This document shows positions 2,622 to 20,210 of a stretch of DNA of 32,606 nucleotides, piece after piece. Every line of letters begins with the position of its first letter. Position 1 is the stretch's first letter. Where the stretch lies: contig JAIVHB010000002.1 in assembly GCA_020201275.1 (NCBI GenBank), positions 1-32,606 of the forward strand, written 5' to 3'. Both the position numbers and the translations under genes were made by a program. The stretch is from Rhodothermaceae bacterium (GTDB taxonomy: Bacteria > Bacteroidota > Rhodothermia > Balneolales > Cyclonatronaceae). The notes beneath the pieces are model-generated. The model made no database searches. It saw only the letters and a program-made list of their open reading frames with translations, and was not told where the DNA came from.

Positions 2622-3509
2622 ATGTACGCAGTAACAGGTGCAACAGGTAAGACCGGATTGGTGGTGGCCGAAGAGCTGCTCAAAGCCGGTAAAGAAGTGA
2701 TTGCAATAGGTCGTAACGAAGAGAAGCTGGCACAACTTGAAGCGGCGGGTGCGGAAGTACATGCCGGTGACCTTCTCGATAAAGATTTTGCTGAAAAAGC
2801 ACTTAAAGGTGCAAAGGCCGCCTATATAATGATACCGCAGAACTTCAGCACCAGCGACTACCGCGCGTTTCAGAGTCAGATATCCGGTTCGCTGGCATCA
2901 GCGGTTATGGCAAACGACCTCACACATGTTGTTACACTGAGTTCTGTTGGTGCCCAGATGCCGGAAAAGGGAGGCATTGTGCAGGGCCTTCACGATATGG
3001 AGCAGATGTTCAATGCACTTGCCGGGGTAAACGTGCTGCATCTGCGCCCGGGATTTTTCATGGAAAACCTTTTCAGCATGATTCCGGTTATCAAAAACAT
3101 GAACATGCTGGTTTCGGGTATCAGGCCGGATCTGCCCGTTCCCATGGTAGCCACACCCGACATCGGCATGCTTGCTGCGCGTCATCTGAAAATGCTCGAT
3201 TTCAGTAACAAGGGACATCAGTATGTGCTTGGTGCGCGTGATTACACCTATCCTGAAGTGGCCGCGTTGCTGGGCCGCTATATTGGCAAACCCGATCTTC
3301 CGTATGTACAGGTTGGCCCCGACCAGCTCATTGAGAGTTTTATGCAGATGGGGGCTACCCGTAACATCGGTGAGGTCTATGCCCAGTTCACTGAAGCCAT
3401 GAACAACGGATCAGTGATGGATGGTGTAGAAAGAAATGCCGGTAACACCACACCGACACTGCTCGATGAGTTTGCCGTTCTATTTGCGGAAGCTTACAAA
3501 TTAAATTGA
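2622..3509 (+). CDS. NmrA-like NAD(P)-binding oxidoreductase
   Basis: An atypical short-chain dehydrogenase of the NmrA/QorB type, 295 aa and full length. The Rossmann glycine motif GATGKTG sits at residues 6-12 directly after the first strand, and IAIGRNEEKL at the end of the second strand suits NADP(H). The centre has HVVTLSSVGA (third conserved strand with the SS pair) and LRPGFFMEN, typical of the NmrA family, which lacks the classical YxxxK catalytic pair. Members serve as quinone reductases or as redox-sensing regulators, so the substrate is open. The protein is cytoplasmic, with no membrane segment. The start is fixed by the Rossmann motif lying four residues in. A direct-repeat candidate operator precedes it. 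Confidence 0.82.
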   Translation: MYAVTGATGKTGLVVAEELLKAGKEVIAIGRNEEKLAQLEAAGAEVHAGDLLDKDFAEKALKGAKAAYIMIPQNFSTSDYRAFQSQISGSLASAVMANDLTHVVTLSSVGAQMPEKGGIVQGLHDMEQMFNALAGVNVLHLRPGFFMENLFSMIPVIKNMNMLVSGIRPDLPVPMVATPDIGMLAARHLKMLDFSNKGHQYVLGARDYTYPEVAALLGRYIGKPDLPYVQVGPDQLIESFMQMGATRNIGEVYAQFTEAMNNGSVMDGVERNAGNTTPTLLDEFAVLFAEAYKLN

Positions 3510-3857
3510 ATTCCAGTGCAGGGCGTGCCTGTTTGCAGGGATTCAATGCCATGTTTTTGCCGGCATCGATAGAATTTAAGCGCTGTTTGAAGGACTAAAT
3601 CGCTGTGATGCAACGGGTTCCCATTTCTGTGTCAGCTGTCGTAATGCTTATTAAAACCGGTTTAAACGAGGATTCCGGCGTTGCCGGATGGTTGAATTTG
3701 AGGTTCATAACGATTGACTTATAACACGTCAATACCTAAATTCGAATATCAATATTATAGTTATTTGACTATAAATAATATCACTCCGGCAACGGCAAAC
3801 ATGCATCGGCAACTATATGACTGTCGGCGATTGCCAAAGCAGGTCATCGGAAGTTAA
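3510..3857. other. 348-bp intergenic region before the cbb3 locus
   Basis: No gene is seen. The right half (3700-3785) is AT-rich and carries a 6-bp-armed inverted repeat (3713-3733), a short palindrome AATATCAATATT (3745-3756) and a TTGACT hexamer at 3765-3770, so it probably holds the promoter of the oxidase locus. No canonical FNR box (TTGAT-N4-ATCAA) is present. Confidence 0.5.
3713..3733. promoter_or_regulatory. inverted repeat ATTGAC-N9-GTCAAT upstream of ccoI
   Basis: Perfect 6-bp arms separated by 9 bp lie 125 bp before the ccoI start. The half-sites resemble the TTGAY half-site of Crp/Fnr regulators, but the 9-bp spacer does not fit the 4-6 bp spacing of that family. The length and symmetry would also suit a LysR-type site. 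The regulator is unknown. Confidence 0.3.
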
Positions 3858-6275
3858 TTGGCTCAACCACTCACTGATAATATCACCCTGTGTGTGCATT
3901 GCGGCGACAGTTGCCCTGAGGGGCACGTGGTTAGAAATGACCTCGATTTTTGCTGTGACGGCTGTGCCATGGTCTATGAGCTGCTCAGTGAAAACGGGCT
4001 GGATGCCTACTATCAGATCGGTGATTCAACGCCCGGTATTTCCCGGAGAAAGTCGGTGCGGAGTGTCCGGTACGAGTACCTGGATGATGCCGGTGTTCGC
4101 GAAAAACTGCTCACATTTACCGACGGCCGGAAGAGCACCATCACTTTTTCACTGCCCCAGATCCACTGCAGCTCCTGTATCTGGCTGCTCGAGAACATAA
4201 ACCGCCTCGACCCGGGCATCTATCGCTCGGAGGTGTCGTTCACCCGGCGTGAGGCATCGGTTACCTTCGACGAGTCGAAAACCACCCTGAGAAAAGTGGC
4301 CGAACTGCTCGACCGGATCGGCTATGAACCCGACCTGAGGCTCGACAGTGCCGAACGCCGGCAGATCACACCGGGCGACCGCGATTTTTACATCAAGGTG
4401 GGGCTGGCTGGCTTCGCCTTTGGCAACATCATGCTGTTCAGCCTGCCCGAATACCTGTCGGGCCCGGCGGGGCTCGACGCCCAGTTCAACCACCTTTTCG
4501 GCTATCTGAACCTCATTATCGCCATACCGGTGTTCTTCTATAGTGCAAGTGTTTTCTATCGGTCGGCATGGGCCGGTTTGCACCAGCGGCAATGGAATAT
4601 GGATATTGCCATTTCGATCGGTATCGCAGCTATGTTTGGCCGCAGTACCTGGGAGATCATATCGGGCTACGGTGTGGGGTATATGGACTCCTTTGCCATG
4701 CTGGTCTTTTTCCTGCTTGTGGGTAAATTGTTTCAGCGGAAAACATTCGAAAGGCTCTCCTTCGACCGGGATTACCGCTCCTATTTCCCGCTGTCGATAA
4801 TTGTTAAGAAGAGGGATGAGGAAAAGAGCATACCCGCCACCAGCCTCGAAACCGGCGATCTGATTGTGCTCCGCCATGGCGAGCTGCTACCGGCCGACTC
4901 CCGCCTGATGAGCCCTGAAACCAGGGTCGACTACAGCTTTGTAACCGGCGAATCGGACGAGGTGCCTGCCGTAAAAGGCGACCTGATCTATGCCGGCGGA
5001 CGGATCACAGGCGGCAGTACAGAACTTGTGGTTACAAAACCGGTCTCGCAGAGCTATCTCACGCAGCTGTGGAACAGGGGGGAATTTAAAACTGAAAAAA
5101 CCGACACGATCCGGAGCGTAACGAACCGCTTCAGCCGCTATTTTTCGCCGGTTGTACTGCTTATTGCCCTAACAGCGGCGCTCTACTGGCTTCCGTCGAG
5201 TCCGGCAACAGCCATTAATGCCTTCACTGCGGTACTCATCATCGCCTGCCCCTGCGCTCTCGCCCTGTCGGCTCCGTTCACCCTTGGCTGGGTTACCGGT
5301 ATTTTGGGAAGGAACAAATTCTATGTGAAAAATTCGGATGTGATCGAAAATATGGCCTCATCAGAAACGATTGTATTTGATAAAACTGGCACACTAACCT
5401 TCCCTATGGAGGCCAGGGTCCGTTATCTGGGTACACCCCTCAGCGATGCCGTGCAGGAGTACCTGTCGGCCGGTCTCAGGCAGAGCACCCATCCGATGAG
5501 CCGGGCCATACTGCGCTTTCTCGATCACAGAGGCATGCACCACCCCGATTTTTTTGAGGAGGTCACAGGTAGCGGTTTGCGATTCCGTTTCGGGGATGAT
5601 ACGTATGTGGTAGGATCAGCAGGGTTTGTTGAAGGTGTGCTGGATCAGATTCCCGAAAACCGGCAGGGCCGTTCGCGAAGCTACATCAGTCTTAACGGGA
5701 AATATCTGGGCTTTTTTGAAGTGAACGGCAGTTACCGTCCCGGGCTGAAGGGCCTCATCGAGCGGCTGCGCGAACGGTACAGCCTGCATCTGTTGTCGGG
5801 CGACGGTCCGGGTGAGCGTGAAGCGCTGCTGCCCCTTTTCCGGGATGCATCCCGCATGCATTTTGAGAAAAACCCGGAGCAGAAGCTGGAATATGTGCGT
5901 GATCTTTCGAGCCATGGGCATGTGCTGATGATCGGCGACGGGTTGAACGATGCCGGTGCGTTGCGGGCAAGTTCGGTTGGTATAGCGGTTACCGACAACA
6001 CCGGAACCTTCACCCCGTCGAGCGATGCGATTATGCACGCTTCGGTTCTTGACAAACTCGACACATTCATTAACTTCAGCCGGTACGGGAAAACGGTAAT
6101 CAGGATCAGTATTGCACTTTCTATTCTCTATAATGTGATTGGTCTTGGATATGCGGTTACCGGTACGCTGTCGCCGCTGATCTGCGCGATCATCATGCCG
6201 GTCAGTTCCGTAACTGTAATTGTATTTACCACGCTGGCCACCAACCTGAAAGCCAGAAGAATGGGACTTGCCTGA
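3858..6275 (+). CDS. ccoI: CcoI/FixI-type copper P-type ATPase
   Basis: A P1B-type ATPase, 805 aa, of the kind that moves copper across the inner membrane for cbb3 oxidase assembly. In order: an N-terminal Cys-rich metal-binding domain (Cys12, 15, 19 and the CCxGC at 32-36), an HMA domain with HCSSC (Cys104, Cys107), transmembrane helices, the actuator TGES (363-366), the ion-binding CPC in the membrane (464-466), the phosphorylation site DKTGT (Asp508), the nucleotide-binding HP (545-546) and the hinge GDGLNDA (693-699). The frame opens with TTG directly after an in-frame TAA, with GGAAG four bases upstream; the only other early start, GTG at 3894, would cut into the first Cys motif, so TTG is preferred. 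It overlaps ccoS by one base (TGATG). Position first in the cbb3 locus supports CcoI rather than general copper export. Confidence 0.92.
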   Translation: MAQPLTDNITLCVHCGDSCPEGHVVRNDLDFCCDGCAMVYELLSENGLDAYYQIGDSTPGISRRKSVRSVRYEYLDDAGVREKLLTFTDGRKSTITFSLPQIHCSSCIWLLENINRLDPGIYRSEVSFTRREASVTFDESKTTLRKVAELLDRIGYEPDLRLDSAERRQITPGDRDFYIKVGLAGFAFGNIMLFSLPEYLSGPAGLDAQFNHLFGYLNLIIAIPVFFYSASVFYRSAWAGLHQRQWNMDIAISIGIAAMFGRSTWEIISGYGVGYMDSFAMLVFFLLVGKLFQRKTFERLSFDRDYRSYFPLSIIVKKRDEEKSIPATSLETGDLIVLRHGELLPADSRLMSPETRVDYSFVTGESDEVPAVKGDLIYAGGRITGGSTELVVTKPVSQSYLTQLWNRGEFKTEKTDTIRSVTNRFSRYFSPVVLLIALTAALYWLPSSPATAINAFTAVLIIACPCALALSAPFTLGWVTGILGRNKFYVKNSDVIENMASSETIVFDKTGTLTFPMEARVRYLGTPLSDAVQEYLSAGLRQSTHPMSRAILRFLDHRGMHHPDFFEEVTGSGLRFRFGDDTYVVGSAGFVEGVLDQIPENRQGRSRSYISLNGKYLGFFEVNGSYRPGLKGLIERLRERYSLHLLSGDGPGEREALLPLFRDASRMHFEKNPEQKLEYVRDLSSHGHVLMIGDGLNDAGALRASSVGIAVTDNTGTFTPSSDAIMHASVLDKLDTFINFSRYGKTVIRISIALSILYNVIGLGYAVTGTLSPLICAIIMPVSSVTVIVFTTLATNLKARRMGLA

Positions 6276-6529
6276 TGGAAGTGATGTATCTGCTCATAGC
6301 ATTCAGCCTGCTGATCGCCTCCGGCTTTCTGCTGGCTTTTATGTGGGCCGTTCGCAGCGGTCAGTACGACGACCGCTACACACCCTCTGTACGGATGCTT
6401 ATGGATGACATTATGCCGGGCAAAAAAAAAGATTCAGACCGGCCTGCAACGCAGCCAGACAAACCGGAAGCAGCCGATGGGCGCGCCGTTGAAAAGAGTG
6501 TCAATTCAAAAGAAAAATCAACTGGATAA
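6275..6529 (+). CDS. ccoS: cbb3 oxidase assembly protein CcoS
   Basis: An 84-aa protein with one N-terminal transmembrane helix (about residues 4-26) followed by SGQYDD and a short acidic and basic tail, which is the CcoS/FixS signature. CcoS is needed for cofactor insertion into cbb3 oxidase and typically follows ccoI, as here. Its ATG overlaps the ccoI stop by one base, which implies translational coupling. The tail after residue 48 is hydrophilic, probably disordered and somewhat longer than in minimal CcoS proteins. Confidence 0.88.
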   Translation: MEVMYLLIAFSLLIASGFLLAFMWAVRSGQYDDRYTPSVRMLMDDIMPGKKKDSDRPATQPDKPEAADGRAVEKSVNSKEKSTG

Positions 6530-6553
6530 AAATAAAGCACACGGAGTAATTAC

Positions 6554-8860
6554 ATGTCGAACGAAGTATTCAACTATGACAACCGTATTGTCCGCAATTT
6601 CGCCCTTGCTACTGTTATCTGGGGTATTGTGGGTATGCTTGTCGGCCTGATTATTGCCATTAAGCTGATCTGGCCCGATTTTCTGGGCTTCATCCCCGAA
6701 CTGAGCTATGGCAGGCTGAGGCCTCTGCACACTAACGCCGTTATCTTCGCCTTTGCCGGCAATGCCATCTTCCTGGGTGTTTATTACTCCCTGCAGCGGT
6801 TGTGCAAGGCGCGCATGTTCAACGATACACTCAGCAAGCTGAATTTCTGGGGGTGGCAGGCCATCATTGTATCAGCCGCAATCACCCTGCCGCTGGGCTT
6901 TTCACAGAGCAAGGAGTATGCCGAGCTGGAGTGGCCGATCGCCATCGCGATAGCCATTGTGTGGGTCATTTTCGGTATCAATATGATGGGCACGATCTAC
7001 AAGCGGCGTGTGAAGCACATGTACGTGGCCATCTGGTTCTACATCGCAACGTTCGTTACGGTGGCGGTACTGCATATCGTTAACAACATTGTGATCCCGG
7101 TCGATATGCTTAAAAGCTATTCGGTCTATGCAGGCGTGCAGGACGCCCTGGTTCAGTGGTGGTACGGGCATAACGCGGTTGCCTTCTTCCTTACAACGCC
7201 CTTCCTGGGAATCATGTACTACTTCATCCCAAAGGCGGCCAACCGTCCGATATACTCCTACCGGTTGTCGATAGTGCACTTCTGGGCCCTCATCTTCATC
7301 TACATCTGGGCCGGACCTCACCACCTTCTCTACACATCCCTGCCGGGCTGGGCGCAGTCGCTGGGGGTGGTTTTCTCGGTGATGCTCATCGCACCCTCAT
7401 GGGGCGGTATGATCAACGGTCTGTTCACGTTGCGCGGCGCCTGGGACCGTGTTCGCCAGGATCCGGTTCTAAAATTCCTGGTGGTCGGTGTAACGGCTTA
7501 TGGTATGTCGACATTCGAGGGACCGATGATGTCGTTCAAAAGCGTGAATGCCATTACCCACTACACCGATTACGTGATTGCCCACGTACACACGGCTGCC
7601 CTGGCCTGGAACGGCGGACTCACCTTCGCGATGCTCTACTTCATTATACCGCGCATATTCAATACAAAAATGTACTCCATCAAGCTGGCCAATTTCCATT
7701 TCTGGGCGGCTACACTTGGTATGGTGTTCTACGTGATCCCCATCTACTGGGGCGGTATTACCCAGAGCCTGATGTGGAAAGAGTTTAACGCCGACGGATT
7801 TCTGAGCTATCCCAACTTTCTGGAGACCGTAACCCAGATCATCCCCATGTATTTTGTGAGGGTGCTGGGCGGCTCGCTCTACATTGTGGGAATTTTTACA
7901 GGTGCATACAACCTGTTTATGACCATGCGATCCGGTAAGCTGATGGCTGATGAGCCGGCCGAAGCGCCGGCAGCCACATGGCGCGACGATGTGAAGCCCG
8001 CTGGCGGGTTCAGCCACCGCTGGCTCGAGTCGAAAACCACACTTTTCACAGTGCTTACACTGATCGCGATACTCATAGGCGGGATTGTGGAGTATTTGCC
8101 AACGGCCATGCTCAAATCAAGTGTACCAACCATTGAGAGCGTGAAACCCTACACCCCGCTTGAGCTGGAAGGCCGCGATATCTATATCGCAGAGGGTTGT
8201 GTGGGGTGCCACTCGCAGATGATCAGGCCGTTCCGGTCGGAAACCGAACGCTACGGGGAGTACTCCAAGGCAGGTGAATTCATCTACGACCGTCCGTTCC
8301 TGTGGGGATCGAAACGGACCGGACCCGACCTGCACCGCATTGGCGGCAAGTACCCCGATTCCTGGCACTATCTGCACTTTGAAAACGCCAGCAATACCTC
8401 GCCGGGATCGATCATGCCGGCGTACACCTGGCTGCTTACCAATGTGATCGACACTACAAAGGTGCCGCGGAAAATCAGGGTGTTGCAGATGCTGGACACT
8501 CCCTACCCCGACGGATACGATCAGGTAGCGGTGAGTGATCTCAGGGAGCAGGCCGAGCAGATTGCCAGCGGCCTGCGCAACGCCGGATTCGATACCGCCT
8601 GGGACCGTGAGGTTGTGGCACTTATCGCCTACATGCAGCGGCTTGGTACCGACATCAATGCAACGCCTGCCGTATCGGGTGCACCGGCTCCCGCACCGTC
8701 GCGGGGCAGCAATACCGCAGCGACTGCTGATACTGATGACAAGGCTACTGATGCAGATGCCAATGCTGATGCTGATTCGGACGTCAATGCTGATGCAGCT
8801 GCAACTGCGGATATGGAAATGAACATGGATACGAATTCAGCCGGCGGCGGATCCCAGTAA
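6554..8860 (+). CDS. ccoNO: fused CcoN-CcoO subunit of cbb3 cytochrome c oxidase
   Basis: Catalytic subunit I (CcoN, about residues 1-470) joined in frame to the mono-heme subunit II (CcoO, about 490-705). CcoN ligands are all present: His59 and His346 for low-spin heme b, His344 for heme b3, and His206, His256 and His257 for CuB; Tyr250 matches the tyrosine that crosslinks to the CuB histidine. CcoO has one membrane anchor (about 494-518), the heme c motif C549-V-G-C-H553 and a probable axial methionine in IMPAY (Met621). The fusion is known from Bacteroidota. The last 60 residues or so are an Ala/Asp-rich low-complexity tail not expected in CcoO. A GGAG site lies about 8 bases before the ATG. 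The enzyme reduces oxygen to water at the inner membrane with high affinity. Confidence 0.95.
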   Translation: MSNEVFNYDNRIVRNFALATVIWGIVGMLVGLIIAIKLIWPDFLGFIPELSYGRLRPLHTNAVIFAFAGNAIFLGVYYSLQRLCKARMFNDTLSKLNFWGWQAIIVSAAITLPLGFSQSKEYAELEWPIAIAIAIVWVIFGINMMGTIYKRRVKHMYVAIWFYIATFVTVAVLHIVNNIVIPVDMLKSYSVYAGVQDALVQWWYGHNAVAFFLTTPFLGIMYYFIPKAANRPIYSYRLSIVHFWALIFIYIWAGPHHLLYTSLPGWAQSLGVVFSVMLIAPSWGGMINGLFTLRGAWDRVRQDPVLKFLVVGVTAYGMSTFEGPMMSFKSVNAITHYTDYVIAHVHTAALAWNGGLTFAMLYFIIPRIFNTKMYSIKLANFHFWAATLGMVFYVIPIYWGGITQSLMWKEFNADGFLSYPNFLETVTQIIPMYFVRVLGGSLYIVGIFTGAYNLFMTMRSGKLMADEPAEAPAATWRDDVKPAGGFSHRWLESKTTLFTVLTLIAILIGGIVEYLPTAMLKSSVPTIESVKPYTPLELEGRDIYIAEGCVGCHSQMIRPFRSETERYGEYSKAGEFIYDRPFLWGSKRTGPDLHRIGGKYPDSWHYLHFENASNTSPGSIMPAYTWLLTNVIDTTKVPRKIRVLQMLDTPYPDGYDQVAVSDLREQAEQIASGLRNAGFDTAWDREVVALIAYMQRLGTDINATPAVSGAPAPAPSRGSNTAATADTDDKATDADANADADSDVNADAAATADMEMNMDTNSAGGGSQ

Positions 8861-8870
8861 GGAGTAATCT

Positions 8871-9113
8871 ATGTACAAGGATGTGCTTTCACGGATGGAG
8901 GGGATCGATTTATTCCCCCTTATCGCACTGGTCATCTTCTTTACCTTTTTCGTGCTGCTCATAGTCTGGGTGATTCGTCTGAACCGCAGCTATGTCGATT
9001 CGATGGCAAACATGCCGCTCGAAGAGGAAGAGCCATCAACCGCCGTGGAATATTCTGGTGCCGGGCCGGCTTCATCGGTACCAGGTAAAACAGAGACTGA
9101 TATCGAACAATAA
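8871..9113 (+). CDS. ccoQ: CcoQ-like small subunit of cbb3 oxidase
   Basis: An 80-aa protein with one transmembrane helix (about residues 15-36) ending in IRLNRSY, then an acidic soluble tail. Small size, topology and location between ccoNO and ccoP identify it as the FixQ/CcoQ component, which stabilises the oxidase. The ATG at 8871 starts ten bases after the ccoNO stop, with AGGAG overlapping the end of the previous gene. Recognition depends more on context than on conserved residues, since this family is weakly conserved. Confidence 0.8.
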   Translation: MYKDVLSRMEGIDLFPLIALVIFFTFFVLLIVWVIRLNRSYVDSMANMPLEEEEPSTAVEYSGAGPASSVPGKTETDIEQ

Positions 9114-9139
9114 AACAACCGGAATCCGGAGAAATCAAC

Positions 9140-9766
9140 ATGGAAGATAAAGACAGAAATATCATTTTTGATGATGAAAAGGATGTATTGCTGAACCACG
9201 AGTACGATGGTATCCAGGAATTTGATAACCCCATGCCGCCATGGTGGTTGTACGGATTCTATTTTACCATCGCACTTGGCGTGGTCTACCTGCTCTGGTA
9301 TGATGTGCTGGGAATAGGCCCGTCGCAGACAGAGGAGTACCAGCGGGAGCTTGCTGCCGCTGAAGAGATGTACGGCGTGGATCCGGGAGCAGGCCCGGGG
9401 GCGGGCACCTCGGTCGATTATGCGACCCTCGAGATTCTCACCGATCAGGCGAGCCTTGATGCCGGCAGGACCATCTATACCAATCCCGCCCAGCTCTGCG
9501 TTACCTGCCATGGTGCAAATGCACAGGGTTTGGTCGGACCCGATCTGACCAGTAATTACTGGCTTCACGGGTGTGATCTACCGTCGCTTATGAACAGTGT
9601 TAAATCCGGTTTTCCCCAGCAGGGGATGCCGCCTTACGGAAGCGGAAACCGGCTGTCGGATGAGGAGTTGCAGCAACTTGCAAGTTATCTGATATCCCTG
9701 AGGGGATCAAACCCCGACGGAGCGAAAGCCCCCGATATGTCACGCTCGGTACAATGCGAAATTTAA
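9140..9766 (+). CDS. ccoP: mono-heme CcoP subunit of cbb3 oxidase
   Basis: Electron-entry subunit III. The 208-aa protein begins with a cytoplasmic acidic segment and the CcoP signature EYDGIQEFDNPMPPWW (about residues 21-36), then one membrane helix (about 35-56) and a periplasmic cytochrome c domain with C120-V-T-C-H124 and an axial Met163 in GMPPYG. Only one CxxCH motif is present, whereas proteobacterial CcoP has two, so the electron path is shortened; mono-heme forms occur in Bacteroidota. The region between the membrane helix and the heme (about 60-95) is Ala/Glu/Gly-rich. A GGAG site precedes the ATG. The gene is followed by the nested palindromic element that separates it from ccoG. 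Confidence 0.92.
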   Translation: MEDKDRNIIFDDEKDVLLNHEYDGIQEFDNPMPPWWLYGFYFTIALGVVYLLWYDVLGIGPSQTEEYQRELAAAEEMYGVDPGAGPGAGTSVDYATLEILTDQASLDAGRTIYTNPAQLCVTCHGANAQGLVGPDLTSNYWLHGCDLPSLMNSVKSGFPQQGMPPYGSGNRLSDEELQQLASYLISLRGSNPDGAKAPDMSRSVQCEI

Positions 9767-9780
9767 CCTCCACTCCCCCC

Positions 9781-9956
9781 CCGTCATGGTGAGCGCAACG
9801 CAGCGCAGCTGCGTGAAGTCGAACCATGTGTGCAGTGTTCAACACTGCACAGGGGGCGAATACAGAACAATGGGCACACTTTTTGGAGGCTTTTTAAAAA
9901 AGCCTCCACATACTTCGACTTCACGCAGCTGCGCTGCGTTGCGCTCAGTATGACGG
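9781..9956. repeat. 176-bp nested palindromic element (REPIN/MITE-like)
   Basis: Two 43-nt arms, 9781-9823 and 9914-9956, are inverted copies with only two mismatches, and the match continues imperfectly inward. Between them lie two further palindromes: 9829-9851 (11-bp arms around one base, beginning TGTGCAGTGTT) and 9884-9908 (12-bp arms, beginning TGGAGGCTTTTT). The arm contains GCGCAACGCAGCGCAGCTGC and ends in GAAGTCGAA, a style like the dispersed GAGCGCAGCGAAGTCGAA repeats of many Bacteroidota. Neither inner hairpin has a U-tract after it, so it is not a classical terminator, although it could attenuate transcription or protect mRNA ends between ccoP and ccoG. It encodes nothing. Confidence 0.85.
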
Positions 9957-9961
9957 TTTTA

Positions 9962-9985
9962 GCGTTGCGTTCAGTATGACGGTTT
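9962..9985 (+). repeat. partial direct copy of the element's right end
   Basis: These 24 bases repeat 9936-9959 with one mismatch (C to T), 26 bases further on. The unit runs from GCGTTGCG to TATGACGGTTT. It looks like a short slippage duplication of the outer edge of the palindromic element, or a second truncated insertion, lying just before ccoG. Confidence 0.75.
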
Positions 9986-10004
9986 AAATCTACAGGCAGT
10001 ATTA

Positions 10005-11480
10005 ATGGATCCTACAATCAATATCGACCCGGGCGATGCCGAACAGGCTTACCGGGATAAAGTCTCAACGATTACATCAGAGGGAAAACGCAACTGGCTC
10101 TACCCGCGGAAACCATCAGGCAGGCTCTATAACGCCCGCACGATTCTGAGCTATTTTCTGCTCGGCTTTCTGTTTGCAGGACCATTCATCAGGATTAACG
10201 GTCAGCCCATAATCCTGATGAACATCCTGGAGCGGAAGTTTGTTCTGTTCGGTATGGTATTCTGGCCGCAGGATTTTTTCATTTTTGCCGCCGGAATGAT
10301 TGCCCTTATCGTCTTTATCGTCCTTTTTACGGCAATATTTGGGCGGCTGTTCTGCGGCTGGGTCTGCCCGCAGACCATTTTCATGGAGATGCTGTTCCGC
10401 AAAATCGAATACTTGATTGAGGGTGACACACCTGATCAGAAAAGACTCGACCGCAGCCCCTGGAACCGCGAGAAAATCTTCAAGAAAACCCTGAAAACCG
10501 GCATTTTTTTCGGCCTTTCATTCCTGATAGCGAATATTTTTCTTGCGTATATAATAGGTGCCGATGCTCTCTGGGAGATCATTACCGACGATCCGCGCGA
10601 ACATATTCCCGGGCTGGCATCCATCACCATTTTCAGCTTTGTATTTTTTGGTGTGTTTGCCCGCTTCAGGGAGCAGGTTTGCACGGTGGTGTGCCCCTAC
10701 GGCAGGCTTCAGTCGGTACTTGTTGATGATAACAGCATCGCAGTAACCTACGATTTCAGCCGGGGTGAAGACCGCGCCCTGCTCAACGCACGTAAACGGG
10801 AAAAGCTCGACAACGGTCAGAATTTTTTCACCAATACCGACAAGAACGATCCCGACAAAACCTACGGCGACTGTATCGATTGCTATCAGTGCGTAAAAGT
10901 TTGCCCGACAGGCATCGATATCCGCGATGGCATACAACTTGAGTGCGTGAACTGTACCGCCTGCATAGATGCCTGCGACGAGATGATGGTTAAAACGGGC
11001 CGGCCGCCGGGGCTGGTGCGTTACGCGTCGTATAATGGTGTTAAAGATGGCGTGCAAAATAAACTCTTTACACCGAGAATTGTGGGCTACTCGGTTATCT
11101 TTATCATCGTATTCTCTCTGTTCGTCTATTTCCTGGCAGCGCGTTATGATGCCGAGGCCCTGATTCTTCGAGAACCGGGACGCACCTACAATGCACTGCC
11201 CGACGGGGGCTATTCAAACTTTTATACGTACAAGGTATTCAACAAAACCCTGGATGAAATACCGGTTGAAATACGACTGCTTCAGCCTGCCGGCGACATC
11301 CGCCTGCTTGGTGACCTTGCAAGCGTTGGCCCTCACGACAGAACGGAGGGGCGGTTCATGGTATTTCTGGACAGGAACGACATGGATCCCAACAGAACTC
11401 CCATTGAGTTCGGATTATTTTCCAACGGGGAGCTGATCCATTCAGCCCGGTCTGTATTCATCGGGCCTCAGACCCCGTAG
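10005..11480 (+). CDS. ccoG: CcoG (RdxA/FixG) membrane iron-sulfur protein
   Basis: An inner-membrane polyferredoxin, 491 aa, which in other bacteria reduces copper for cbb3 assembly. The membrane part carries the paired motifs C117-GWV-C121-P and C226-TVV-C230-P, as in NapH/FixG proteins. Two 4Fe-4S ferredoxin motifs follow: C290, C293, C296, C300 and C314, C317, C320, C324, all intact. After a last membrane helix (about 364-383) comes the C-terminal Ig-like FixG_C domain in the periplasm. The ATG at 10005 lies after a weak AGG. It starts 49 bases beyond the palindromic element, so it may have its own promoter or depend on read-through from ccoP. Confidence 0.95.
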   Translation: MDPTINIDPGDAEQAYRDKVSTITSEGKRNWLYPRKPSGRLYNARTILSYFLLGFLFAGPFIRINGQPIILMNILERKFVLFGMVFWPQDFFIFAAGMIALIVFIVLFTAIFGRLFCGWVCPQTIFMEMLFRKIEYLIEGDTPDQKRLDRSPWNREKIFKKTLKTGIFFGLSFLIANIFLAYIIGADALWEIITDDPREHIPGLASITIFSFVFFGVFARFREQVCTVVCPYGRLQSVLVDDNSIAVTYDFSRGEDRALLNARKREKLDNGQNFFTNTDKNDPDKTYGDCIDCYQCVKVCPTGIDIRDGIQLECVNCTACIDACDEMMVKTGRPPGLVRYASYNGVKDGVQNKLFTPRIVGYSVIFIIVFSLFVYFLAARYDAEALILREPGRTYNALPDGGYSNFYTYKVFNKTLDEIPVEIRLLQPAGDIRLLGDLASVGPHDRTEGRFMVFLDRNDMDPNRTPIEFGLFSNGELIHSARSVFIGPQTP

Positions 11481-11530
11481 CAGGGTAAGACAAATTTCTA
11501 ACTCACACAGGCTCATAAACAGGAAACAGA

Positions 11531-12022
11531 ATGAGTAACCAGAACGAAACAAGTAACAGCGATCAGGGAAAAAAATCGGGCATGGGATGGCCGGTCGGCA
11601 TCATTATCGGGTATCTGATTTTCATTGGTGCAACCCTCGGTTTTGTCTTTTTTACGTTCACCGTACCCGTGAATCTCGAAAAGGTGGATTATTATGAAAG
11701 TACCCTGCAGTATCAGGATCAGATCGACCGCGTGTCGCGAACCATGGCACTTGCAGAGCAGGTCCGCTTTGAACTGAGCGACGACAGGGCAAACCTGAAC
11801 ATCCACTTTCCCGGCGAGCATGCTGTAAATGGCATCAGTGGCAGGATTCATCTGTTCCGTCCTTCTGATTTCCGTCTCGACCGTGAAGTGGAAATAGCCA
11901 CCGATTCCCTCGGCTGGCAGACGATACCCGTAAAGGGAATGCAGCACGGGCACTGGATCATGAAGGTACGCTGGGATGCCGGCGGCGAAGAGTACTACTG
12001 GCAAAAGGAGCTCAGCCTTTAG
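11531..12022 (+). CDS. ccoH: FixH/CcoH family cbb3 assembly protein
   Basis: A 163-aa FixH-like protein: a hydrophilic N-terminus rich in Ser, Asn and Gln, one transmembrane helix (about residues 20-43), then a periplasmic beta-rich domain with the family's YYES segment and a closing WDAGGEEYYWQKEL. FixH/CcoH interacts with the oxidase during assembly. It follows ccoG by 50 bases and has AGGAAAC before the ATG. The order ccoG-ccoH is the usual one and is the main support; the sequence itself is only moderately conserved. Confidence 0.85.
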   Translation: MSNQNETSNSDQGKKSGMGWPVGIIIGYLIFIGATLGFVFFTFTVPVNLEKVDYYESTLQYQDQIDRVSRTMALAEQVRFELSDDRANLNIHFPGEHAVNGISGRIHLFRPSDFRLDREVEIATDSLGWQTIPVKGMQHGHWIMKVRWDAGGEEYYWQKELSL

Positions 12023-12100
12023 GCGGGCAGCATTGTGATGTGGCTGAGCCTGAATAGCGGGAGACACTAATAAATCTGATCAGATAAAGAGGTAACAGCA

Positions 12101-12784
12101 ATGGATATTTTATGGACCGGTTTTCTTTTTGGCCTGCTCGGAAGTGCCCACTGTGCCGGTATGTGTGGCCCCATAGCCGTGGCCCTGCCGGGCAGCGATC
12201 GCAGGGGAATGGCCCTTTTCTCAGGCCGGTTGTTGTACAATACCGGACGAACCCTCACCTACATGCTGATGGGGGTGGCTGCGGGGCTGCTTGGCCTCGG
12301 GGCCGCGCTTGCCGGATACCAGGGTGGGTTGTCGGTCTTTGCCGGAACCGTGATCCTGCTCATGCTTATCTTCAGGACACGTTTTTTCTCGACCAGTTCG
12401 GTTTTCCGGTCTGACTATTTCCGCAAATTGTTCGGCCGCCTGCTGAAATCGCCCGGAAACGGATCCCTGTTTTCGCTGGGCCTTCTAAACGGCTTTCTTC
12501 CCTGCGGCCTCGTATATCTGGCCCTGGCCGGTTCGGCCGCGGCGGGCTCCCTTCTCAACAGTGTACTGTACATGGGCCTGTTTGGTTTGGGCACCATCCC
12601 CATGATGATGGCCCTGTCGCTGGCACCCGGATGGCTGAAGCCTGAGGCCCGGCGGCGCCTCACGAAATTCATCCCGGTGGGAGCGGCCCTGGTAGCGGTA
12701 CTGCTCATCCTCAGGGGCCTGTCGCTGGGTATTCCGTTTATAAGCCCCGACCTGACCGGCGCAGGAGCAGAGATGTGCCATTGA
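12101..12784 (+). CDS. TauE/SafE-like (UreH-type) membrane protein of the cbb3 locus
   Basis: A 227-aa polytopic membrane protein (about six helices) of the sulfite exporter TauE/SafE, or UreH-like, family that commonly closes cbb3 loci in Bacteroidota. The N-terminal motif SAHCAGMCGP has His17, Cys18 and Cys22 in or beside the first helix, a metal-binding arrangement, and LNGFLPCGLVYLAL in the middle is the second family hallmark. The protein ends in Cys-His. The motif and context suggest metal or heme handling for the oxidase; real sulfite export is not shown. AAAGAGGT lies before the ATG. Only 78 bases separate it from ccoH, so it is likely the last gene of the operon. Confidence 0.85.
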   Translation: MDILWTGFLFGLLGSAHCAGMCGPIAVALPGSDRRGMALFSGRLLYNTGRTLTYMLMGVAAGLLGLGAALAGYQGGLSVFAGTVILLMLIFRTRFFSTSSVFRSDYFRKLFGRLLKSPGNGSLFSLGLLNGFLPCGLVYLALAGSAAAGSLLNSVLYMGLFGLGTIPMMMALSLAPGWLKPEARRRLTKFIPVGAALVAVLLILRGLSLGIPFISPDLTGAGAEMCH

Positions 12785-13336: not shown

Positions 13337-13861
13337 ATGCAACTCCATAAAAAAACAACCAGAATAATAGCTGTTGTTGCCCTGTTGGCTGTTGGTTCCA
13401 TTTTGAATTCAAGCTGCGACAAGTCAAATCCGGTACGGGTACTTCCCGAGGATGTAGCCGGTTTATATGAATTTCAGCAGTTTATTTTCATACCTGATGC
13501 TTCAGCCCTGGAACCTGCAAATTTACTGGACACACTGGCTGTCAACAATACAAATCTCCGCCTGCTCGACGGCGGTCAATTTACTCTCAACTATCAGTTT
13601 TTGGGAGGTCCCGAAGCAATCATATCCGGTGATTTCAGTGTGAGTTCTACTGAGATCAGATTACAAGCTGCTGCCGGGTCCGAGGCGAGACTTGCATCGC
13701 TGCTTCTGCACTCTCCCTTACGTCTGAGACGTAATATCGATCTCGACAAACTGGAGGGGTCTGATACCAAAACGGTTGATTTGAGTGCCTATGCAGAGCG
13801 CTATGCCGGTGTGCCACCCGTACGGGGGAGACTCATTATAGAGTTGATACTGCAGGACTAA
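13337..13861 (+). CDS. small lipoprotein of unknown function
   Basis: I do not recognise the family. The 174-aa product has a basic start, a hydrophobic stretch and a lipobox LNSSC with the lipidated Cys at about residue 27, followed by Asp, so it is probably an envelope lipoprotein. The mature part alternates short hydrophobic and polar strands (FTLNYQF, ISGDFSVSSTEIRL, GRLIIELIL), suggesting a compact beta domain. It lies 126 bases before the multi-barrel gene in the same direction and may be expressed with it. No catalytic motif is visible. Confidence 0.7.
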   Translation: MQLHKKTTRIIAVVALLAVGSILNSSCDKSNPVRVLPEDVAGLYEFQQFIFIPDASALEPANLLDTLAVNNTNLRLLDGGQFTLNYQFLGGPEAIISGDFSVSSTEIRLQAAAGSEARLASLLLHSPLRLRRNIDLDKLEGSDTKTVDLSAYAERYAGVPPVRGRLIIELILQD

Positions 13862-13987
13862 GCAGTAGCAAAATATTGTACCGCCGTTAACGGCACAGCT
13901 GCAGAGCCTTTTTATTATTGCAGACTGCCCGGACATCAGGCGGACTAAAGGGGAAATAACCAAAAGAATTTTAATATCTCAAAGACT

Positions 13988-16303
13988 GTGAAAACACATT
14001 TACAAAAACAAATCAGATCTGTCATAAGCCTGCTTTCCACATTTGTGGTACTATGCGGGCTATCACAGATAACATATGCTCAGGTATCGGGTGTGAGCTT
14101 CAGCCTGTCGCCAAGCGGCGATTATCTTATTTTTGAAGATAATGCAGGCCTTAAACCGGGATACGCTGTTGGCGGTTTACTGGGATTAGGGTTTGGACAG
14201 TATGTTGAATTGCACGCCAGTTATTTATATGGCGACAGGTACCGCACCGATTTTACCCGGCTGAGGGGAGGCGACGAAGTTGTTTCTGAAAGGCTTGGCC
14301 TTTTGAACAATTACGACGTAACTATTCAGAGGTACGGACTTTCTGCCAAGGTAAATCTGGCAAGTACGGCCATTGTGCCCTATCTCACGATGGGTACAGG
14401 GGTGATTCGAATGGACCGTAACAATCTGAAGGCGAGCGAAAGTATATACATTTCGGGCGGAGCAGGGCTGATGGCATCCGTTGCATCGCGTTTCAACTTT
14501 TTTATCCAGGCTTCGCACATGGGCTACCGATATAACCCTGGTTCGGCTTTTCTGAGAGGCAGCGAAATGAACGTCGCACGCCTGCAGCCGGCCAATTTTA
14601 CTCAGGTGGATGTTACCAACTGGGATATTATGCTCGGTATCAGAGCGTATCTGGGCGGTAGCCGTTTTGAGGATGTAGGGGATGATCTCATATTTCTGGA
14701 TGAGTTCAATGGCGGATGGTCAAATGTTCGCTACACCTTTGATGCCTACTACGGCCAGATCTTTTTTGAAGAATCGCTGGGATTTCCATCAACAACGCAC
14801 ATAGCCGGATTACAGGCCGGTCTCGATTTTGGTCCCCACGTGGGAGTAAGAGGTTTCTACTGGCGCGGTATAGACGACAGTGACGGACTTGATCTGGATA
14901 AACTTCATATGTATGGTGCACTGTTCAGAACAGCCTTTTTCAGGTCTGGTATTACACCCTATATTAATTTGGGTGGCGGCTATATGCGGGTTATGAGTGA
15001 TTATGATCCGGGAATGCTCACCAATCCGAAAAGTCAGATGTTTGCACTTACGGGTGTGGGTCTTGAAGCCAATATCATAAGAAGTCTGGTCTTAAAAGCG
15101 GATATCAGTGCTATGGCGCTTACCGAAGATGGTATCGACAACGCCATATCACCTTCGTCTATAAACCTGAGCCCGATGTTTACCCTTGGCATATCCTACC
15201 GGATCGGTGACTTTGTTATCCGGCAGCGTGACAGAAGGCAACCGGTCACAGAAATGACCAGACCTGTTGCATTAACCGAGACTGATCCCATTACCCGGGA
15301 TCTCGAACAGCGCCAGCGGATGCAAATTATGCGTGAGACCGCGCTGAGCACCGAAATCGCGAAAGCTCTTGCAACCGGCGATACCCTTGTGGCCACCAAT
15401 CTGAGCAGTGAACTTGAAAGATTGCGCAGTGATGTTCCACGTCCGGTGGATGTATCAACAGAAAAGGTTACAGATAGAGGAATGGTTACAGATACATTAA
15501 AGGTTGTTGAGAAAAAGATTGACGACCGTACCATAACGCTTCCGGTTCTTGAGGACGGTGAGATCTATATCCGCTTCGGAAAGCCTGCTCCCGTTGCACC
15601 GGTTACTCCGGCTGTTACCGGCGAAAGCCAGACAGTACGCGATCTGGAACGCCGCGTTGAACAATTGCTGAGAGAGCGTGAAGCGGCCAGAACAGGTCAG
15701 CAACAGCCACAGTCCAGTGTTACTGTAATACCAGCTCAGGGCGATGACTCTATGGACCGGCGGATGAGGCAATTTGAGGAGAGAATGATTGCACTGCTCG
15801 AAAATCGTCAGCCTCAAACCGTTGTTACCACGCAACCTTCACAGGGGGCAGCGGCATCTCCGGGTGTTACGGTGATTCAGGAACGTCAACAGTCAGGACA
15901 ATTGAACGGAATAGCCGCATATCTTGGCGTCGCTAACCCAAACCAGGGTGTGATTGGTCTGCGGGGTGACTACGGCACCTTCCTGAGCGGTAATATCGAA
16001 CTGGTACCTGAATTTGTACTCGGTTTCGGTAACGATACACGGATGTACAATATCAACGCTCTGTTGCTGACACCCCTGCCGGATGTCAGGTATATCGCTC
16101 CGTTCCGCCCCTATACAGGGCTTGGTCTGGGGCTGATGGCATTCAACAACCCTCCTGATGACATAGCCGGTATCCAGTTTACGTGGTCGTTCCATCTGGG
16201 CGCAGAACGGGATCTTGGTCCGGGTAAATTGTTCATGGAGTACGCCAGCCTGAACCTGTTCAGCTTTAACAGGTTCAACGTCGGCTACAGGCATTCGTTC
16301 TGA
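13988..16303 (+). CDS. multi-module outer-membrane beta-barrel protein
   Basis: A 771-aa secreted protein with an N-terminal signal peptide (about residues 1-32, ending TYAQ). Three segments look like OmpA/Omp_b-brl barrels: 33-228, 242-415 and 638-771, each with alternating amphipathic strands and glycine-rich turns (GGLLGLGFG, GLQAGLDFG, GLGLGLMAF). The last ends in Phe, as barrels do. Between the second and third lies about 220 residues of linker with two predicted coiled-coil stretches (RDLEQRQRMQIMRE near 437, RDLERRVEQLLRERE near 549) and Pro/Gln-rich sequence. The start is GTG at 13988. An OmpA-family gene follows 19 bases later. Three barrels in one chain is unusual; the second could be a lower-confidence barrel. 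Function is unknown. Confidence 0.75.
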   Translation: MKTHLQKQIRSVISLLSTFVVLCGLSQITYAQVSGVSFSLSPSGDYLIFEDNAGLKPGYAVGGLLGLGFGQYVELHASYLYGDRYRTDFTRLRGGDEVVSERLGLLNNYDVTIQRYGLSAKVNLASTAIVPYLTMGTGVIRMDRNNLKASESIYISGGAGLMASVASRFNFFIQASHMGYRYNPGSAFLRGSEMNVARLQPANFTQVDVTNWDIMLGIRAYLGGSRFEDVGDDLIFLDEFNGGWSNVRYTFDAYYGQIFFEESLGFPSTTHIAGLQAGLDFGPHVGVRGFYWRGIDDSDGLDLDKLHMYGALFRTAFFRSGITPYINLGGGYMRVMSDYDPGMLTNPKSQMFALTGVGLEANIIRSLVLKADISAMALTEDGIDNAISPSSINLSPMFTLGISYRIGDFVIRQRDRRQPVTEMTRPVALTETDPITRDLEQRQRMQIMRETALSTEIAKALATGDTLVATNLSSELERLRSDVPRPVDVSTEKVTDRGMVTDTLKVVEKKIDDRTITLPVLEDGEIYIRFGKPAPVAPVTPAVTGESQTVRDLERRVEQLLREREAARTGQQQPQSSVTVIPAQGDDSMDRRMRQFEERMIALLENRQPQTVVTTQPSQGAAASPGVTVIQERQQSGQLNGIAAYLGVANPNQGVIGLRGDYGTFLSGNIELVPEFVLGFGNDTRMYNINALLLTPLPDVRYIAPFRPYTGLGLGLMAFNNPPDDIAGIQFTWSFHLGAERDLGPGKLFMEYASLNLFSFNRFNVGYRHSF

Positions 16304-16322
16304 TGCGAACTATAATGATGGT

Positions 16323-17597
16323 ATGAGATGCATGATCTCCATACTGCTTATTACACTGCTTAGTATCGTATTTCCGCAGGATTTTATCAGTGCGGAGACT
16401 ATCGACAACAGTGTCGCTGACCCGTTGGTCAGCGACACTGTTACAGTCAGTGATACGGTTGCGGTCAGCAACATTCCTGCAGTCAGCGACACGGTTGCGG
16501 TTAACAACGTTCCTGTAGTCAGCGACACGCTTGCAGTCAGCAACGTTCCTGTAGTCAGCGACACGGTTACAGTCGATGATACAATTTCAGTCAGCGATAC
16601 CCTCGCAGCCGGTAATGTTCCTGCAGTCAGCGATACTCCTGTAGTTAGTGATTCTCTTAGGGTCGGTGATTCTCCGAGAGTTAGCGACACCCTTGCAGTT
16701 AGCGACACCCTTGCAGTCAGCGACACGCTTGCAGTCAGAAGCGATACTTTTGCGGTCAGTGACACGCTTTTTGACAGTTCTGCTACTGAAGAGCGGATTG
16801 ACGCAATTCAAAGGAGAATACAACAAATCCGTTCCCGGGACCTTGGGCGAAGTCAGCTTATACCGAGGCTCGGTTTCCCAATGGATGCAGAGATGGCCTT
16901 GCTTCGCAGGCAGCACCAAGAAGAGAAAAACATCCTGAGGCTTACCTGGATGATTCGGTTGCTCGAGATGATGGACGATCCGGCGACAGCAGCCCATCAC
17001 ACAATTATTGTTCAGGGCACACGAGGGGTTGGCGATGCAACTCCCATTCCTCCACGTGACCCGTTGATACCCCCCGATCCGGTTATTCCCCCCGATCCAG
17101 TTATTCCCCCCGAAACGTACCAGCTGCCTCCCGATACGACTGTCGTAATACGGGTGGATACCCTTATGGTGACCCGCACCGACACCGTATTTGTGGACAG
17201 GATGCAGACCGAAATTATTGAACTGCAGAAGATGCTTGAAACAGGTGTATTCAGGGCATTCTCGATTGTATTTGAATTCGACCGGGCTGAGATCATGCCA
17301 TCCTCCTATCGCATACTCAATGAAGTAGGCCAGCTTCTGATCGATAACCCGGAAATCCGGATTGAGGTACAGGGACACACCGATAGCGTCGGGCCACGGC
17401 AGTATAACATGAATCTATCGCAGCGCAGGGCCGAAAGTGTTCGCAGCTATTTGCTGGAAAACTTTTCCGAAATTGAACAAAACCGCATAAGGACAGCAGG
17501 TTTTGGTCCGGATATGCCGATAACAGATAACGATTCGCCTACACAGAGAGCCTTAAACAGAAGGGTGGAATTCATAATCATCGACCATGTTGATTGA
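16323..17597 (+). CDS. OmpA-family protein with VSDT-repeat stalk
   Basis: A 424-aa envelope protein. Residues 1-24 form a signal peptide ending ISAE. Residues 36-149 are a repeat region of six-residue units around V-S-D-T-L/V-A, with SDT twelve times. A helical segment follows (about 150-220), then a Pro-rich spacer with PPDPVI repeats (about 245-265). The C-terminal OmpA domain (about 310-424) has FEFDRAEI, GHTDSVG and NMNLSQRRAESVRSYL, whose Asp and Arg bind the diaminopimelate of peptidoglycan. There is no N-terminal barrel, so it is probably a periplasmic protein tying another component, plausibly the preceding multi-barrel protein, to the wall. The ATG at 16323 lies 19 bases after that gene. 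Confidence 0.85.
   Translation: MRCMISILLITLLSIVFPQDFISAETIDNSVADPLVSDTVTVSDTVAVSNIPAVSDTVAVNNVPVVSDTLAVSNVPVVSDTVTVDDTISVSDTLAAGNVPAVSDTPVVSDSLRVGDSPRVSDTLAVSDTLAVSDTLAVRSDTFAVSDTLFDSSATEERIDAIQRRIQQIRSRDLGRSQLIPRLGFPMDAEMALLRRQHQEEKNILRLTWMIRLLEMMDDPATAAHHTIIVQGTRGVGDATPIPPRDPLIPPDPVIPPDPVIPPETYQLPPDTTVVIRVDTLMVTRTDTVFVDRMQTEIIELQKMLETGVFRAFSIVFEFDRAEIMPSSYRILNEVGQLLIDNPEIRIEVQGHTDSVGPRQYNMNLSQRRAESVRSYLLENFSEIEQNRIRTAGFGPDMPITDNDSPTQRALNRRVEFIIIDHVD
16428..16769 (+). repeat. 18-bp tandem repeats within the OmpA-family gene
   Basis: The DNA repeats a core of GTCAGCGACACG with a spacer to make units of 18 bp, in imperfect copies over about 340 bases. Near 16680-16735 three successive units are almost identical. 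Expansion or loss by whole units keeps the reading frame, so the stalk length could vary between strains. Confidence 0.8.
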
Positions 17598-17701: not shown

Positions 17702-19657
17702 CTATCTGATCAGCATAATTTTCCGGCTCCCCGCAGGTTTTCCGTCGGCATAGATGCGCACCATATACAGGCCGCTGGCATAACCGGCGGCATCGAACAT
17801 CACAGTGTGACTGCCCGGTGTGGCAGCGGCATCGGTGAGTGTCGCGACAGTGCGGCCCAGCAGATCGTGAACCGTGATGCGAATGCGGGAGGGCTCAGTC
17901 ACCGAGTAGACAATGGTGGTTGTGGGGTTGAACGGGTTCGGGTAGTTCACCTTAATTGTTGCCGAACCGGGATGCATACGCTCCGCTATCCGCTCTTGTT
18001 CGATCGAAACCGCCGTGCCCGGCGATAATTTGCGGTTTACTGCGGCCATGACCGCATCGGCCGCGGCCGGTTTTCCGTCTGTACCCGACGAAAGGATCGA
18101 CACAGTGGTATCATCCGTACTGCTGTCAATATAGAGGGTGCCCGCGTGCTGCCATCCTCCGTTGCCCACAGGTATCTTAAGCGTACCCCCGTCACCGGTC
18201 TCAGTGGTAAACCGAAGCCTGTTCCCGTCGACAGTTCCAGGGGAAAATTGAAGCGTATCGGTGAAGTTTTCTCCCGGGGTGGTCCAGACATAGAGATCGT
18301 ACCAGGCCTCCTCCGGAACATCCAGAGCGTAAGTGATAGAGCCGTTTGAAGACCCCTCGGGATCAAAAACCCAAACGGTGCCGTCAAAGCCGGGGTTGTT
18401 TGAGGTTAACCAGGTGCCTGTAACATCAGTGCCCGGGGACTCGGGCCTGCTGATGGCCGCCGCGGGCCGCCGTTCGAAACTTTTACGGCCCGGGATAAGC
18501 GCCGAATGGGTGTAGAACTCCTCCTTCAGGAAAGCAGCAAGCTCGTTACTGTTTTTTCGAAGCCCCTCATAGAAGAAAAATCCCTCGCCCCGGATACCGG
18601 CTACCCTGTTCGATTCCATGAAAAGCCGCAGGGAATCGACAGGTACGGTGTAGGAACCCACATTCATCAGTATCCCGGCTATGAGGATGTCGAGGTGGTC
18701 GCCGGCCTGCTCAACGGCACGGTCAACTTCTATCTGATACGCTGCCAGGTTCTGCCGGTAGAACTGCGGAATCCAGTGATCGATCGTGCCGTTGCTGATC
18801 CACGACGGAGGATCCTGCAGGTATTCGCTGAACGCCCAAGGATACACGCTTGGACTCGAAGCCACAAACAGCTCCGGATCCCGTGTTTTCACCGAATCGC
18901 GAACACGGCTGTAGAAATCGTTCAGTTTGCCGGCCCTCCAGGTGCGCCATGCAGGGTTCCGAAAGTTGAAGGGCGGATCGGCCCCGTCGTGTTCACTCCG
19001 GTATAGAGTGGTGGTATAGTCGTCGTAGCCGCACTCGACGGGCATGGCCGGCATGCGGTCGGAGAACTCGATGCCGTCAATGTCGTAGTTGTCGATGATC
19101 TCCATGGCCAGCGCAATAATGTGATCCTGCACTTCGGGATGGATGCCGTTCATCCAGTCGAAGCCGTTCTTGGTGCAGTGGTTCCCGTTGCGGTCGAACG
19201 TGGCCCAGTGCGGGTTTTTCGCGATGATGTGGCCGCCATGGGGAGGAGTGCCGCCCGAATAGATACTGGCAAATCCATACTCAAACCAGGGGTAAACCTC
19301 GATGCCCACGCGGCGGGCCTCCCTTACCAGCACGCCCAGCGGATCACGGCCGGCAAACCGTGGATCGATTGGTATGCCGAACTCCCGCTCCATCACCCCG
19401 CTGGGGTACTGGGTCCAGCCGGCGTTCTGTACCACCGGCAGCACGGCGTTGATGCCGGTTTCGGCAAGGAAGTCCATGGCCGCGGCGATGCCCTCATCTG
19501 AAAAAAGCACCTGGCTGTCGACATTGGTGATTTTAACCGCGCGGAGTTCTTCGACGGGCTGGGACTGCACTAACCCCGGATATACTGATATAACCAGGAT
19601 GAGGAGAATTGAGATGAATACGTCAACACCGGCACGTGGTTGAAGTCTGCTTTTCAT
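17702..19657 (-). CDS. secreted GHL10-type glycoside hydrolase-like protein with T9SS signal
   Basis: A 651-aa exported protein. After a signal peptide (about 1-32) comes a glycosyl hydrolase-like 10 / family 10-like TIM barrel (about 38-385) with landmarks GINAVLPVVQNAGW, IEVYPWFEYGF, NYDIDGIEFSDRMP and WIPQFYRQN; the acidic residues in the third are the probable active site. A golvesin- or CBM-like beta domain follows (about 430-545). The last 80 residues are a type IX secretion sorting module: NYPNPFNPTTTI, then VHDLLGRTVATL and GLYMVRI. The substrate is unknown; members act on peptidoglycan or surface polysaccharides. The start ATG overlaps the preceding gene's TGA by four bases (ATGA), indicating coupling to the small membrane protein. 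Confidence 0.88.
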   Translation of the reverse strand: MKSRLQPRAGVDVFISILLILVISVYPGLVQSQPVEELRAVKITNVDSQVLFSDEGIAAAMDFLAETGINAVLPVVQNAGWTQYPSGVMEREFGIPIDPRFAGRDPLGVLVREARRVGIEVYPWFEYGFASIYSGGTPPHGGHIIAKNPHWATFDRNGNHCTKNGFDWMNGIHPEVQDHIIALAMEIIDNYDIDGIEFSDRMPAMPVECGYDDYTTTLYRSEHDGADPPFNFRNPAWRTWRAGKLNDFYSRVRDSVKTRDPELFVASSPSVYPWAFSEYLQDPPSWISNGTIDHWIPQFYRQNLAAYQIEVDRAVEQAGDHLDILIAGILMNVGSYTVPVDSLRLFMESNRVAGIRGEGFFFYEGLRKNSNELAAFLKEEFYTHSALIPGRKSFERRPAAAISRPESPGTDVTGTWLTSNNPGFDGTVWVFDPEGSSNGSITYALDVPEEAWYDLYVWTTPGENFTDTLQFSPGTVDGNRLRFTTETGDGGTLKIPVGNGGWQHAGTLYIDSSTDDTTVSILSSGTDGKPAAADAVMAAVNRKLSPGTAVSIEQERIAERMHPGSATIKVNYPNPFNPTTTIVYSVTEPSRIRITVHDLLGRTVATLTDAAATPGSHTVMFDAAGYASGLYMVRIYADGKPAGSRKIMLIR

Positions 19658-20136: not shown

Positions 20137-20210
<74 letters not shown>

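Follow-up and report, generated by a model that had tools for sequence, protein, structure and literature searches.

Three co-directional genes encode what may be a two-protein connector between the outer membrane and the peptidoglycan, in which a wall-binding OmpA-domain protein (OA) is docked on the periplasmic stalk of a predicted multi-barrel outer-membrane protein (TB), with a lipoprotein (LP) as an accessory; we put the chances of this proposal at about even. The genes lie in the window, that is, the whole 32,606-nt stretch of DNA that was analysed. The proposal draws on computational observations, namely the conserved gene order, a duplication within TB, the peptidoglycan-contact residues of OA, a linker segment common to TB and OA in seven genomes, and the joint absence of TB and OA from one genome.

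Gene organization

The features of the locus, all on the forward strand, are the following.

13337–13861, + strand: LP, a 174-aa lipoprotein of no known family (Cys27; position upstream of TB)
13988–16303, + strand: TB, a 771-aa multi-barrel outer-membrane protein (27-row alignment A1)
14075–14659, + strand: TB barrel unit 1, residues 30–224, eight strands by sequence reading (Pfam OMP_b-brl 20–218)
14693–15217, + strand: TB barrel unit 2, residues 236–410, a full-length duplicate of unit 1 (hhalign, OMP_b-brl)
15218–15886, + strand: TB linker, predicted to be periplasmic, with helices and the conserved motif ITLPVLEDGEIYIRFGKP at about residues 516–533 (motif, heptads, helices)
15887–16300, + strand: TB barrel 3, residues 634–771, a probable eight-strand barrel with a C-terminal aromatic end (strand alternation, weak fold matches)
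16323–17597, + strand: OA, a 424-aa secreted OmpA-domain protein with no barrel or lipobox seen (OmpA domain match)
16427–16769, + strand: lineage-specific tandem repeat of VSDTLA-like units in the OA N-terminus (TRF periods 18, 36, 39 and 72)

The open reading frames confirm what the initial annotation of this DNA had described, three adjacent genes on the same strand with the last two 19 bases apart: LP and TB are separated by 126 nt, and 19 nt lie between the TB stop and the OA start. Promoter and terminator scans of the locus gave little above shuffled sequence. The first gene had been called a lipoprotein, and its Cys27, which follows a hydrophobic N-terminus, is indeed invariant in 13 of 13 homologues. 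LP has no match in Pfam, NCBIfam or the PDB; a guess from its sequence that it is lipocalin-like was dropped, profile support being absent. The LES C-X-K-(D/E)2, a signal of surface-exposed Bacteroidota lipoproteins (PMC5080379), is not found after the lipidated cysteine of LP, where the sequence reads CDKSN, and the corresponding segments of its relatives (CQKEN, CSKDN and CNEEN) fit it in part.

The predicted multi-barrel protein

TB matches Pfam OMP_b-brl above its gathering score, in two stretches, and 17 of 27 TB homologues also match this model; when the modules are cut out, barrel 2 alone is matched in 17 of 27 homologues and barrel 3 in 2 of 25. Units 1 and 2, each with eight strands by sequence reading and with a short polar linker between them, are homologous to one another over 158 columns (hhalign probability 99.3, E 1.1e-20), and hence go back to one whole unit duplicated in tandem. 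No named family in Pfam or NCBIfam describes TB other than that generic barrel model. Its profile, like that of LP, finds no relative among PDB sequences, only coiled-coil noise, and viral contigs hold no relative. The idea that TB is a lipid A deacylase was rejected, as the Pfam PagL match (E 0.003) falls below the cut-off and the alignment contains no conserved His/Ser pair.

Of the three barrels, the third is the one held with least certainty; it probably has eight strands. Profile comparison detects no relation between this module and units 1 and 2 (probability about 6%), its strand alternation comprises 6 segments against a shuffle mean of 2.8, and the alignment shows PYxGxGxG to be conserved and the terminus to be aromatic, of the YRFxF type. 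Modelled alone by AF2 with two alignment rows, the module forms a five-strand meander for which the best Foldseek match, a weak one, is NspA, with OprF-N and OmpA also matched and none below E 0.001; because the pLDDT of this model is 51, these matches are to be read as a hint only. The AlphaFold model of full-length TB, made from two alignment rows of which the second is one partial homologue, has a pLDDT of 31. In the homologues L070 and L078 the chain stops after the linker, without barrel 3.

The linker between units 2 and 3 is some 225 residues long, contains helices in the low-confidence model, and bears a motif, ITLPVxExGExYIRFG, that is conserved in TBs across the class. A test for heptads gave 4/200 shuffles for the linker at this locus and mixed results in other TBs. 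Given the even number of strands in each barrel unit, the linker is expected on the periplasmic side of an outer membrane in which TB would be seated. Of the earlier picture of three barrel modules joined by coiled coils, two full-length OMP_b-brl units and a probable third barrel are seen, and the first two may form either two eight-strand barrels or one of 16 strands; only a short linker connects units 1 and 2, and helical or coiled-coil sequence is found only between unit 2 and barrel 3.

This architecture might also be that of a pore or transport protein, with units 1 and 2 fused into one 16-strand barrel, barrel 3 forming a second, and OA and LP serving only to position or stabilize TB. 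The two units are complete tandem duplicates, as such a fusion would have them, and a duplicated eight-strand OmpX is reported to be a functional pore (Arnold et al. 2007, as cited in PMC6340704). Nonetheless, each unit aligns over nearly the whole of the eight-strand OMP_b-brl profile, the sequence between them is polar, and transport genes are absent beside the trio; we regard a pore as less likely than the connector.

The OmpA-domain protein and a stalk segment shared in part of the family

OA carries an OmpA domain at residues 317–413 (Pfam, E 4.8e-23); upstream of residue 317 there is no barrel match, no barrel-like sequence and no lipobox, in keeping with its first description as an OmpA protein lacking a barrel of its own. 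Within the domain, D354, N362 and R369 are invariant in all 15 aligned OAs and have the same 8- and 7-residue spacing as Asp576, Asn584 and Arg591 of PorE, the side chains of which contact peptidoglycan (PMC7192894). The N-terminal region had been read as a repeat stalk. The 18/36-bp tandem repeat is present, but this VSDT-type repeat is peculiar to this genome and absent from relatives, and OA is 424 aa long here versus 298 aa in a same-genus relative.

In other genomes the N-terminus of OA resembles the linker of TB. Specifically, for the OAs of seven genomes (L068, L069, L070, L084, L088, L089 and L090), which are alignable from the motif to the helix, hhalign matches the two segments with a probability of 97.3, a score of 75.0 and an E of 1.7e-11 that is not a blind-test value, because the seven pairs were picked after the motif had been seen by eye in the alignment. 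The reversed OA scored 15.3 and the best of 30 column shuffles 19.1. In an unselected scan of 4,621 six-frame ORFs with the TB motif model, the best non-TB matches were two OAs, those of L069 (E 6e-4) and L084 (E 0.007). The homology is not visible in the TB/OA pair of the present locus, where OA has repeats and no motif, and with the Flavobacteria-type linker motif the shared motif is not significant and OA is not found. As the homologous subset does not include the pair studied here, these profile comparisons support a common origin of the two segments in only a part of the family.

These properties suggest how the connector might be built. The barrel units of TB would anchor it in the outer membrane and leave the linker in the periplasm; OA, an exported protein in which no membrane anchor is seen, would grip the peptidoglycan through its C-terminal OmpA domain and dock on TB through its N-terminal segment, so that the contact would be made by the TB linker and the OA N-terminus; LP would be an accessory outer-membrane lipoprotein of the LP–TB–OA unit. 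The reasoning is that a wall-binding protein without its own anchor needs a partner in the membrane and that the adjoining TB offers one, which makes TB the anchor and OA the wall hook. The docking of OA, the location in the outer membrane, a mechanical function and the part played by LP are what we infer from this. A more specific version, which we offer tentatively and hold to be rather less than probable, is a split tether, in which the periplasmic stalk of a three-barrel TB pairs with a segment of homologous stalk carried by a second, wall-binding chain, the anchor and the hook being encoded separately and having evolved from a shared stalk.

Distribution and synteny

Searches recovered TB from 8 of 41 near relatives (the MAG Balneolaceae DLM2.Bin41 is one reached by the TB search), from 24 of 396 genomes of the phylum and, at E 1e-3, from 51 of 218 genomes of the class, about 40 being TB proper by E-value; full-length TB also occurs outside the class in a few other Bacteroidota. 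Its patchiness among near relatives argues against an essential tethering role. In the TB tree the branching mostly agrees with the families, and the TB of this locus groups with that of G021, from another family, with support of 100/99, likely as the result of one transfer. At L100 (4820–6240) the TB match extends over two reading frames, where a frameshift or an assembly error is possible.

The initial annotation had called for a survey of the trio's neighbourhood in relatives. Among 45 TB loci, 43 of them evaluable for OA and 42 for LP, OA lies directly downstream of TB on the same strand at 22 and LP directly upstream at 26, and the complete trio is found at 16 loci in seven families (f1, f3, f9, f12, f14, f15 and f16). 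With only a few OmpA-domain genes per genome, the adjacency of TB and OA is far above chance. In another class, OA is downstream of TB at L083 and divergent from it at L080. Genome G178, outside the class, has two TB paralogues, L078 without barrel 3 and L083 with it, and an OmpA-domain gene directly follows the latter. Because the genes further out vary among genomes, the trio appears to be a self-contained unit.

A further observation comes from G005, which shares with its congener G007 the thioredoxin-like gene upstream, the LP and the M28-like peptidase downstream and has neither TB nor OA; a profile search of the G005 genome found generic OmpA domains only, and no OA with its own N-terminus. 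The difference could alternatively reflect an insertion of TB and OA in G007.

At about half of the TB loci, no OA adjoins TB. OA is hence not obligatory, and TB would at such loci work alone or with a different partner. In G006, G008, G009 and G017, relocation of OA was considered and rejected, the best OmpA proteins there being of a different type, and lipoproteins where the start is seen. At L067, a 212-aa exported protein (2684–3322) without an OmpA domain begins about 40 nt after TB, in the place of OA, and other reading frames hold no OmpA remnant. The proposal that the OmpA protein clamps TB to the wall gains from the 16 trios in seven families, the one genome that lacks both TB and OA, the invariant peptidoglycan residues and the linker homology in seven genomes, and loses from the TB loci without an adjacent OA, four near relatives having none elsewhere.

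It is also worth considering that LP, TB and OA may be functionally independent envelope genes, held together by chance or by shared regulation, and indeed LP and TB are each present without the other members of the trio at some loci. The order kept over seven families, the joint absence of TB and OA in G005 and the linker homology all speak against this, and we consider independence improbable. Equally hard to sustain is the idea that TB and OA belong to an apparatus of the cell surface, whether for type IX secretion, gliding or adhesion, by analogy with the outer-membrane barrels that work with the OmpA-domain lipoprotein PorE: barrel 2 has a weak PorG match (E 4e-5, far below cut-off), PorE is among the OmpA-domain matches and the next gene, on the opposite strand, carries a T9SS C-terminal sorting domain, but the NCBIfam scores are 23.4 bits against a cut-off of 130 for PorG and 76 against 600 for PorE, the latter through the generic OmpA domain only, and neighbour genes vary among genomes.

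Elsewhere in the window, positions 3858–12784 hold a cbb3 oxidase set composed of a heavy-metal P-type ATPase, a COX1-FixO fusion (CcoN and CcoO in one 768-aa chain), FixP, FixG, FixH and a DsbD_2 protein. The gene after OA (17702–19657, − strand) encodes a member of the GHL10 family that has a Golvesin-like stretch as well as the type IX secretion C-terminal sorting domain; the same-genus contig L035 has a close homologue (3016–4902) near the trio. A tRNA gene (20137–20210, − strand) is the sole Rfam match in the window.

Relation to known systems

Multi-barrel outer-membrane proteins and connectors of the outer membrane to the wall are known kinds; the combination of LP, TB and OA, seen in some Bacteroidota, looks like a further variant of these, with no name in the databases searched. 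The earlier statement that no named system fits holds for Pfam and NCBIfam, but a 2021 study (PNAS; as relayed in PMC11494523 and PMC8592465) had described outer-membrane proteins with several barrels as a kind, with GfcD/YjbH as an example. Going by those accounts, GfcD/YjbH resembles TB in having more than one predicted barrel per chain and a periplasmic middle part. The barrels of GfcD have 12 and 13 strands, and its context is that of a capsule; TB differs in its two duplicated eight-strand units with a further, probable barrel, in the motif of its linker and in the wall-binding partner linked to it. A literature search for tandem or multi-barrel outer-membrane proteins returned GfcD only.

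SlpA/OmpM are connectors of the outer membrane to the peptidoglycan (PMC9388160, PMC10628300) and share with TB/OA an outer-membrane barrel, a periplasmic coiled-coil part and a wall-binding end; in D. radiodurans, the lipoprotein DR_0644 sits on the coiled coil of SlpA (PMC9388160, PMC10628300). In SlpA a single chain forms a homotrimer and carries an SLH domain, whereas TB/OA would place the barrel and the wall-binding OmpA domain on separate chains, and no SLH domain is matched in TB, LP or OA. OmpA, OprF, Pal and PorE have the same peptidoglycan-binding domain and contact residues as OA, but OmpA and OprF include a barrel in the chain, Pal and PorE are anchored by a lipid, and OA shows neither feature.

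Prediction is the main source of what is known about chains with several outer-membrane barrels, whose function is largely open. TB has conserved partners, among them a wall-binding protein whose stalk is related to its own in some relatives, and this gives a multi-barrel protein a testable function, that of tethering. Likewise, the natural tandem duplication of a whole eight-strand unit makes the choice between two small barrels and one large pore directly testable.
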